Assembly: GCF_902167145.1 (NCBI RefSeq)
Contig: NC_050104.1
Span: forward strand, 103,675,849 to 103,739,848
Origin: Zea mays
Lineage: Eukaryota > Streptophyta > Magnoliopsida > Poales > Poaceae
Reading direction: 5' to 3'
Length of the DNA: 64,000 nt
The translations under genes were made by a program, and so were the position numbers. Below the pieces are notes generated by a model that saw only the letters and a program-made list of their open reading frames with translations, was not told the origin of the DNA and did no database searches. This document shows, one piece after another, positions 36,298 through 37,329 of the stretch; position 1 is the stretch's first letter, and every line of letters starts with the position of its first letter.

Positions 36298-37329
36298 ATG
36301 GCTCGTCTTAGACACACTGCACGTAAGTCGGTGATTCCTTTCCTGCCGTCTCGACTTGCGGAGCGTCCTCTGCACCGCACCGTGTCCGGACAGTCGAGTC
36401 ACCTGGAGAGGCTGCACCACCGCCTGCGTGAGGAGCAGGAACGCCGGCGCCAGCACGGAGAGCAGCAGGGCTCTTCCTCCTCACCCCAGCAGGAGGTGGA
36501 GACCGTGAGGCCCCGTTCCTCTGTGGCCCAGCTGGAGGCGCCCCTTGTTCCACCGCGGGACGTCCCGGCTGTTGGAGGGGCTGTTGGAGGAGCTGTTGGA
36601 GGAGCTACTGGAGGAGACCCCGACGACGACGACTCAGCCCACAGCACGGAGTCCTCTGAGCCGCAGGAGGCGGAAGGATGGGTCGCCCGACCCATCACCC
36701 GTGACGCCGCTCGTGGTTGTCACTTCCACGACGCACTCGACACCTTGCTGCGCCAGGCTTTCGACCGGCACACCTGGTCGATCGAGTATCGTTGTGTGGT
36801 CTACCAGCACAGTCGCGGGAGGTACCCGGACCGCTGGGAGGCTACCTGCCTAGTTCGCCGTCCGGAGGATGACCTCCGGGGTGCGGAGGCCGTTTCGGAG
36901 CACTATTCCATCTCCGAGAGGGACACTGCAGAGGCGGCTATGCAGGATGCAGCACGACGTGCACTCTCTCAGTACTGTTCTTTGTTCGGTGGCGTGGCCG
37001 ACGGTCTTAACCTTCGGTACTACCCCCGCCGCCCTACTGGCAGCACAGAGAGTGTGGTTGTTTCACCTGTTGGTGAGGCTAACCCTAGGTTGAGCAGCAC
37101 AGTCAACCTAGTCGCAGTGCTTAACACTGAGCTGGATCACTCTCTGGACGAGCTAAGCAGGGCTCGAACGGAGATTGCGGAGTTGCGTGCTGAGTTGGCA
37201 GAGCGCCATCACCAGGAGGGTGGTTCCCCCGCTCCTGTCGGGACTCAGCACCCTTACCGCTCACCGCCACGTGGTCATCACACTTATGGTTCCCCTGTCT
37301 GTAAGACCAGGATAGATTTGGATCCTTAG
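36298..37329 (+). CDS. ORF1 of chromovirus D: H3-tail-like N-terminus, unknown domain, coiled coil
   Basis: 343 residues, intact. Starts MARLRHTARKS: 8 of the first 11 residues match histone H3 counting the initiator Met ([11 protein letters not shown]), including the K9-centred ARKS. Then an Arg/Glu/Gln helix (LERLHHRLREEQERRRQHGEQQ), Gly repeats (VGGAVGGAVGG), acidic DPDDDD, a compact domain at about 150-245 (WSIEYRCVVY, DRWEATCLVR, DTAEAAMQDAARRALSQY) whose strand-strand-helix pattern faintly recalls a double-stranded RNA binding fold, and a heptad region (LDELSRARTEIAELRAELAERH, about 285-308). The ATG is fused to a splice-acceptor-like TCTTTTGTAG. Position matches ORF1 of element B. Not a known required retrotransposon protein. 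A role with chromatin readers or the element's own chromodomain is inference. Confidence 0.85.
   Translation: MARLRHTARKSVIPFLPSRLAERPLHRTVSGQSSHLERLHHRLREEQERRRQHGEQQGSSSSPQQEVETVRPRSSVAQLEAPLVPPRDVPAVGGAVGGAVGGATGGDPDDDDSAHSTESSEPQEAEGWVARPITRDAARGCHFHDALDTLLRQAFDRHTWSIEYRCVVYQHSRGRYPDRWEATCLVRRPEDDLRGAEAVSEHYSISERDTAEAAMQDAARRALSQYCSLFGGVADGLNLRYYPRRPTGSTESVVVSPVGEANPRLSSTVNLVAVLNTELDHSLDELSRARTEIAELRAELAERHHQEGGSPAPVGTQHPYRSPPRGHHTYGSPVCKTRIDLDP

Follow-up and report, generated by a model that had tools for sequence, protein, structure and literature searches.

The stretch of Zea mays DNA analysed here (NCBI RefSeq assembly GCF_902167145.1, contig NC_050104.1, positions 103,675,849 to 103,739,848 of the forward strand; 64,000 nucleotides, hereafter the window) contains two long terminal repeat (LTR) retrotransposons, designated elements D and B. 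Each carries, upstream of gag-pol, an open reading frame (ORF0) whose predicted product begins like the tail of histone H3. The features of element D are as follows.

32423-45964, plus strand: element D, LTR retrotransposon, delimited by an LTR pair and a target-site duplication (TSD)
32423-36043, plus strand: 5' LTR
36298-37329, plus strand: ORF0 of element D (ORF0-D), 343 codons, 343 amino acids, between the 5' LTR and gag-pol
36298-36381, plus strand: H3-tail-like N-terminus of ORF0-D, codons 1-28
36298-36330, plus strand: core MARLRHTARKS of ORF0-D, with the K9 equivalent at residue 10
37734-42308, plus strand: gag-pol, with the gag ATG at 37734 and a C-terminal chromodomain-like stretch
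42344-45964, plus strand: 3' LTR

The 3.6-kb LTRs of element D show 11 differences over 3623 aligned positions (99.7% identity), and the element is flanked by the TSD TACCA (32418-32422 and 45965-45969, read by eye). Assuming 1.3e-8 substitutions per site and year, its age would be about 0.1 million years. The gag-pol frame contains gag, protease (PR), reverse transcriptase (RT), RNase H (RH) and integrase (IN) domains in the Ty3/gypsy order gag-PR-RT-RH-IN, followed by the chromodomain-like stretch. The latter had been proposed in an earlier inspection of the letters of the window (the sequence-only reading); PDB entry 2m2l, which we take to be a chromodomain, was matched by this C-terminus (E 0.0011), although a Pfam search of the same part gave no Chromo match at E up to 0.01. 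LTRs longer than 3 kb and an open reading frame between the primer-binding site and gag were found, as in Tekay/Del elements with an ORF0. From their structure, elements D and B probably belong to the Tekay/Del chromoviruses. The features of element B, whose gag-pol is 52-55% identical to that of element D, are as follows.

9192-22835, minus strand: element B, the second chromovirus of the window, with LTRs and the TSD ATCAC
9192-13223 and 18805-22835, minus strand: LTRs, 98.5% identical
18305-18580, minus strand: open part of the ORF0 of element B (ORF0-B), 91 amino acids, then TAG; a further open stretch extends to 17996
18497-18580, minus strand: H3-tail-like N-terminus of ORF0-B, codons 1-28, MPPRTRKTARKSTGPIGVPRHQLAPRHE
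13376-17811, minus strand: gag-pol, interrupted near 13870 in the window copy

The core MARLRHTARKS is identical to histone H3 at 8 of 11 positions, exactly as the sequence-only reading had claimed from the translation. After removal of Met1, ORF0-D reads A1-R2-x-R4-x-T6-A7-R8-K9-S10. The opening residues of ORF0-B are MPPRTRKTARKSTGPIGVPRHQLAPR (over a longer stretch, MPPRTRKTARKSTGPIGVPRHQLAPRHEDSSSG), and here the H3 likeness runs further than in D: after removal of Met1 the protein reads (P)-P-R-T-R-K-T-A-R-K9-S-T-G and, after a short spacer, P-R-H-Q-L-A. The H3 residues R2, T3, T6-A7-R8-K9-S10-T11-G12, P16-R17 and Q19-L20-A21 are therefore present in ORF0-B, with one additional residue before P16. 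K9 is the sole lysine of the H3 tail that is retained; B has an extra lysine at the place of Q5. ORF0-B was not found by tblastn with the ORF0-D protein at E up to 1.

The first 40 residues of each protein were shuffled 200,000 times, with composition and Met1 preserved, and scored against the H3 tail. The ORF0-B score was reached by 1/200,000 shuffles and the ORF0-D score by 116/200,000. As an in-window control, all 658 ATG starts followed by at least 30 open codons were compared with H3, one skipped residue being permitted for all. Over the first 12 positions of H3, ORF0-D had 8 matches and ORF0-B 9 (one residue skipped), and the other 656 starts had at most 5. By gapped local score ORF0-D ranked sixth of the 658 and was not exceptional; ahead of it were two starts from B and three basic, unrelated stretches, of which two lie in the gag of D and one in the pol of another element. 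The distinctive trait is the in-register H3 match at the N-terminus.

When PDB (177,635 sequences) was searched with a B profile built from 20 sequences chosen with the start present, histone H3 came top (best E 0.0073) and was matched in its tail; the best 60 of the 130 matches were all H3-type chains. A search with the single ORF0-B sequence at E up to 10 returned 56 matches, 47 of them H3-type (E 0.23-5.5), headed by a coiled-coil match to Rho kinase 1 (E 0.2). N-terminal pieces picked by their start pattern (102 from D and 202 from B) were also compared. B matched H3 from residue 1 onwards for 29 columns (P 9.5e-6), D matched H3 over residues 1-11 (P 1.4e-4), and B matched D with a P value of 1.3e-3, indicating that each family is nearer to H3 than to the other family. 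The sequence match is thus beyond chance, the result of the D profile search described below standing against this. A Pfam scan of both window ORF0 proteins and five relatives listed no Histone match, and ORF0 as a histone-fold protein of the H3 gene family was rejected for that reason.

An in-frame TAG directly precedes the ATG of ORF0-D and the next in-frame methionine is residue 215, so that M1 is the only sensible start and the H3-like segment would be the start of the protein, if ORF0 is made. An unused start codon, which the sequence-only reading had named as grounds for abandoning its proposal, was rejected on the same evidence. In element B the upstream in-frame ATGs were disfavoured because the upstream frame is not kept among 240 B proteins: by a rough pattern, 79 have one upstream frame, 40 a second and 13 some other, 79 start at the start methionine and the motif is missing from 29. 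For ORF0-B we therefore prefer, without regarding it as proven, the MPPRT start. The TAG after 91 codons belongs to the window copy; 25 of 30 other fetched copies are open.

Conservation of the tail residues was determined from 120 aligned D homologues (834 found) and from two B searches, one with words and scoring restricted to what follows the H3-like segment (467 hits, 120 used) and one with the whole ORF0 (138 hits, 120 used). Columns were counted in the alignments of all 120 D and 240 B proteins, with gaps omitted and no pattern filter. In D, the K9 equivalent is lysine in 104/106 proteins, and the T6, A7 and S10 equivalents are kept in 101/106, 95/106 and 99/106, respectively; the R8 equivalent is arginine in 89/106 and Q, W, C or H in the remainder, as would be expected from CpG decay. 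In B, lysine is found at K9 in 217/228, threonine at T6 in 212/226, arginine at R8 in 183/227, leucine at L20 in 237/239 and alanine at A21 in 229/240. Among the 120 B homologues collected without use of the H3-like segment, 104 of the 108 that have the column carry the K9 lysine. The other H3 lysine positions are replaced: at K4, arginine is found in 99/105 D and 215/225 B proteins (lysine in 2/105 and 7/225), and at K18, histidine is found in 233/238 B proteins. MPRTRKTARKSTG, found among the more distant B relatives (identity about 59-63%), has precisely the register of H3. ORF0-D as a whole has 2 lysines and 41 arginines in 343 amino acids, and column 10 is the sole near-invariant lysine column in D (92/94, with no arginine, in an alignment of 96). 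Where ORF0-D otherwise almost always has arginine, its K9 equivalent stays a lysine. A protein so poor in lysine and rich in arginine might also be less ubiquitinated.

Selection was examined in copies from the same genome, in subfamilies D1 (8 of 118 scored places), D2 (30/118), D3 (3/119), B1 (30/150) and B2 (11/144); the B2 copies were picked for having no stops, and two of them are one codon short. In codons 1-28, the D1-D3 comparison gave 14.7 synonymous versus 2.0 nonsynonymous differences, a ratio of nonsynonymous to synonymous differences per site (pN/pS) of 0.06, and residues 1-11 showed 3 synonymous differences and no nonsynonymous one. Elsewhere in the same comparison pN/pS was 0.75 in the linker (58-127), 0.13 in the part resembling a double-stranded RNA-binding domain (dsRBD), which is as constrained as the first window, and 0.20 in the coil. 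The D1-D2 and D2-D3 comparisons gave 0.16 and 0.12 for codons 1-28 and 0.72 and 0.73 for the linker; for the first 11 codons alone, D1-D2 gave 0.35. Between B1 and B2, codons 1-28 had a pS of 0.72 and a pN of 0.039 (pN/pS 0.05, against 0.14-0.48 elsewhere), and the first of 167 windows of 28 codons had the lowest pN of all. By pN, the first of the 316 D windows is within the lowest 36 for D1-D3, 92 for D1-D2 and 88 for D2-D3. Selection on the protein thus maintains the match. Three things are direct observations: that two families match H3 in sequence, that the match stands at the protein start, and that it is under purifying selection at the protein level. The conservation of ARKS, which the sequence-only reading had put forward as its own check, was borne out across subfamilies.

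Two AlphaFold2 models of ORF0-D were of low confidence (mean predicted local distance difference test score, pLDDT, 41 and 46). They suggest a tail, a helix at about 32-57, an acidic and glycine-containing linker, a dsRBD-like part at about 128-245 and a coil at about 263-307. The first 32-33 residues have a pLDDT below 50 and the two helices are more confident; a helix-strand-strand-strand-helix order appears at 143-229 in one model and partially in the other, mostly at a pLDDT below 50. No double-stranded-RNA-binding match was found in a Pfam scan of ORF0-D. Structural similarity to a double-stranded RNA-binding motif (DRBM) protein, with TM-scores of 0.35-0.37, is described for the ORF0 proteins of maize Tekay and sorghum Sb7, and grass ORF0 proteins are predicted to be nuclear (PMC11728184). 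A tail mimic would have to expose a disordered tail on an oligomer, an arrangement that ORF0 may have.

Acceptor-like tracts lie at, or within 4 bases of, the starts of ORF0 and gag in both elements.

36278-36297, plus strand: tract rich in pyrimidines that ends in TTTTGTAG and immediately precedes the ORF0-D ATG, its last codon being the in-frame TAG
37728-37733, plus strand: CCACAG before the gag ATG of element D
18585-18599, minus strand: tract TTTTCCCCCTTAG directly followed by AAAGATG, before ORF0-B
17812-17817, minus strand: CCACAG before the gag ATG of element B

The tract before the ORF0-D ATG terminates in TCTTTTGTAG; diverged B2 copies have CCCCTTATGGAGATATG, or nearly so, in the tract before ORF0 and lack TTAG. 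By their look these tracts resemble 3' splice acceptors. Splicing, if it occurs there, would rid element D of its four leader ATGs, and a choice between alternative acceptors could account for the translation of two ORFs in tandem on a single transcript.

For the ORF0 family of D alone, 11,330 first-look candidates were counted in the Zea mays genome, of which 118 were scored. Three pairs of near-identical ORF0 copies lie on the same strand 9-10 kb apart (C7:22600987/22610936, C2:218853286/218863244 and C4:172399688/172408783); the spacing, about one element minus one LTR, suggests tandem elements with a common LTR. Two scans of viral contigs gave no relatives. The single locus in bacterial genomes, reached with an RT search, is NZ_SWBM01000019.1, a contig of 3,173 bases from a Robertmurraya genome that encodes a stretch 78% identical to the chromovirus RT region; the coverage of 0.198558 given in its title points to plant contamination, and the contig is regarded as stray and plant-like. 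Some B-family ORF0 proteins also occur in metagenome sources under labels such as chromosome segregation ATPase, SlyX and archaellum FlaC, plant DNA in metagenomes having been given bacterial names.

Given that the conservation test supported the proposal and that a second, divergent family, absent from the sequence-only reading, matches H3 better than the first, H3 mimicry is well supported. It is probable that the ORF0 tail is a selected mimic of the H3 tail that is bound by some H3-tail-binding protein. That it acts as a functional K9-only mimic engaging the H3K9 methylation pathway, presumably as a decoy, is our favoured reading and is held with moderate confidence; the choice of a decoy over a tether, taken by itself, falls somewhat short of an even chance.

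Several results weigh against these interpretations. For the likeness itself, the ungapped match of D to H3 ends after S10, the D profile (24 sequences) returned three PDB matches, none of them H3, the single ORF0-D sequence returned no H3 match, and whole-length alignments of B and D did not align their N-termini. Concerning the residues, the S10 equivalent in B is serine in 163/228 proteins and histidine in 59/228, which form a subclade, and the R17 equivalent is arginine in only 176/238, the rest being mostly C or H. The register in B, scored by pattern, includes one extra residue before R2 in 191/240 proteins and is exactly that of H3 in 17/240 (32/240 were not scored by the pattern). Concerning selection, 4 of the 167 B windows, the first included, are as low by pN/pS, as are 29, 99 and 44 of the 316 D windows in the D1-D3, D1-D2 and D2-D3 comparisons, and by pN the first window is merely in the lower third for D1-D2 and D2-D3, partly because the D2 copies are old and decayed. 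Histidine at the S10 place in the B subclade would remove the position of a phospho-switch; K9 remains.

The same sequence evidence would suit a tether, in which H3K9me readers, HP1-like or other, bind the K9-methylated tail, and the tail so brings an ORF0-bound ribonucleoprotein (RNP) or pre-integration complex to heterochromatin, for targeting or nuclear retention and not for anti-silencing. The RNP of the element might be carried by the coiled-coil and the dsRBD-like segments, and chromoviruses already have a targeting module. However, the Tekay integrase itself already bears a chromodomain and we know of no link between ORF0 and integrase; a tether is regarded as rather unlikely. A partner within the element has also been considered. 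The sequence-only reading had raised, besides H3 mimicry, that a chromodomain of the same element might read the methylated tail; the mimicry stood and the second proposal was weakened, because chromodomains of the Tekay type (CHD_II) are described as lacking Y24, the first aromatic of the cage, and usually also Y48, the third (PMC3350952), and the chromodomain-like stretch of D has W and then a histidine aligned with Y48 at the cage positions. A CHD_II chromodomain without a methyl-lysine cage might instead bind the unmodified tail and so couple ORF0 to integrase, tail and chromodomain both being present within one element. The loss of the cage residues (PMC3350952) counts against this, as do sunflower Tekay groups 1 and 3, which are described as having CHD_II and no 5' additional ORF (PMC11728184), and we consider such binding very unlikely.

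The N-terminus is rich in arginine, grass ORF0 proteins are predicted to be nuclear (PMC11728184), and the D score was reached by 116/200,000 shuffles and its profile found no H3, all of which would fit a basic segment of the ordinary kind, for nuclear localisation or RNA binding, that resembles H3 by chance or composition. Such a segment would hardly explain the single shuffle in 200,000 that equalled the second family, the first place of H3 in an open profile search with B, or a lysine instead of an arginine at the K9 place of a nearly lysine-free protein, and this explanation is therefore quite unlikely. Transposable elements (TEs) capture pieces of host genes, and splice-acceptor-like tracts lie just upstream, so that the segment might also be a functionless relic of the 5' end of a captured host H3 gene, or be conserved by constraint on the RNA (packaging or splicing) instead of the protein. 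However, codons 1-28 vary at synonymous sites as freely as the rest (pS 0.60 and 0.72), and their amino acids are nearly fixed. So much synonymous divergence speaks against a cause at the RNA level, which was rejected, and a lack of function is largely refuted by selection; together, relic and RNA constraint are highly improbable.

K9 of H3 is the lysine that plants methylate to silence such elements. Under the favoured reading of ORF0 as a decoy mimic, the disordered tail would be displayed in several copies via the coiled-coil parts and would be bound, probably after methylation of its K9, by host writers and readers of H3K9me2, for which KYP/SUVH enzymes, CMT3/ZMET2-type chromomethylases and other H3K9me readers are candidates. 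The net effect would be that of a competitor weakening the loop between H3K9me2 and DNA methylation on the element. These findings suggest that the element may interfere with, or exploit, its own silencing machinery. The BAH domain of maize ZMET2 is reported to bind H3 residues 1-10 with K9me2, and ZMET2 also binds H3 14-23 along a groove with an allosteric loop, contacting R17, K18, L20 and T22; allosteric activation requires readout of K18 (PMC9256654). ORF0-B keeps the 1-12 segment, R17 and L20 of the contacted residues and has H at K18, P at T22 and one more residue in the spacer. The loss of the K18 equivalent with retention of R17 and L20 suits a ligand that binds ZMET2 without activating it, which would be the simplest reading of ORF0-B. 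The more specific proposal that ORF0 is a chromomethylase antagonist, a multivalent K9-only tail, methylated like H3, that sits in ZMET2/CMT3 at the sites for K9me2 and for R17/L20 and, for want of K18, holds the enzyme inactive, is offered tentatively and is on balance doubtful. Other H3-tail-binding host factors fit as well as chromomethylases, which counts against the favoured reading.

If ORF0 does act in this way, it would counter silencing at the H3K9me2-CHG loop and would, to our knowledge, be the first case of a histone-tail mimic encoded by an LTR retrotransposon. Grass Tekay elements are abundant in cereal genomes, yet their ORF0 is without an established function. Mimicry of the H3 tail, maintained by selection, would be a concrete function that is cheap to test, would join transposon biology to viral histone mimicry, and would bear on how silenced families keep amplifying and on what plant CHD_II chromodomains bind.

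ORF0 resembles histone H3 in its first 11-24 residues or so; the rest of the protein is unrelated, with no histone fold found. Like the ORF0 proposed here, VANC of the VANDAL transposons is a TE-encoded anti-silencing protein; unlike ORF0, it is described as sequence-specific, and we recall no histone likeness of VANC. An H3-like tail in a retrotransposon is not described in the titles and abstract beginnings of the open-licence literature among the matches listed, and the word "histone" does not occur in the main texts of PMC3485330, PMC11728184, PMC7264820 (on additional ORFs) and PMC13317346 (on gene capture by plant TEs). ORF0, or 5'aORF, is known in grass Tekay elements including Retrosat2, RIRE3, RIRE8, FRetro3, maize Tekay and sorghum Sb7 (PMC3485330, PMC11728184). 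As described there, it lies, like the ORF0 of the window, between the 5' LTR and gag in elements with LTRs of about 3 kb or more (PMC3485330, PMC11728184), and the product is predicted to be nuclear, with a long C-terminal helix and a DRBM-like part in maize and sorghum (PMC11728184). Compared with these known ORF0s by their descriptions only, the H3-like start, its selection and a second H3-like family are new here. H3 mimics are described for viruses, namely influenza NS1, ARKS in SARS-CoV-2 ORF8 and adenovirus protein VII (PMC10208167, PMC12937675), and, like ORF0, are parasite proteins with a short motif that resembles the H3 tail and surrounds a lysine open to modification. The viral motifs are described as short, and as C-terminal in NS1, whereas the likeness in ORF0 lies at the extreme N-terminus, in or near the H3 register, and extends over about 11 residues in D and 24 in B.
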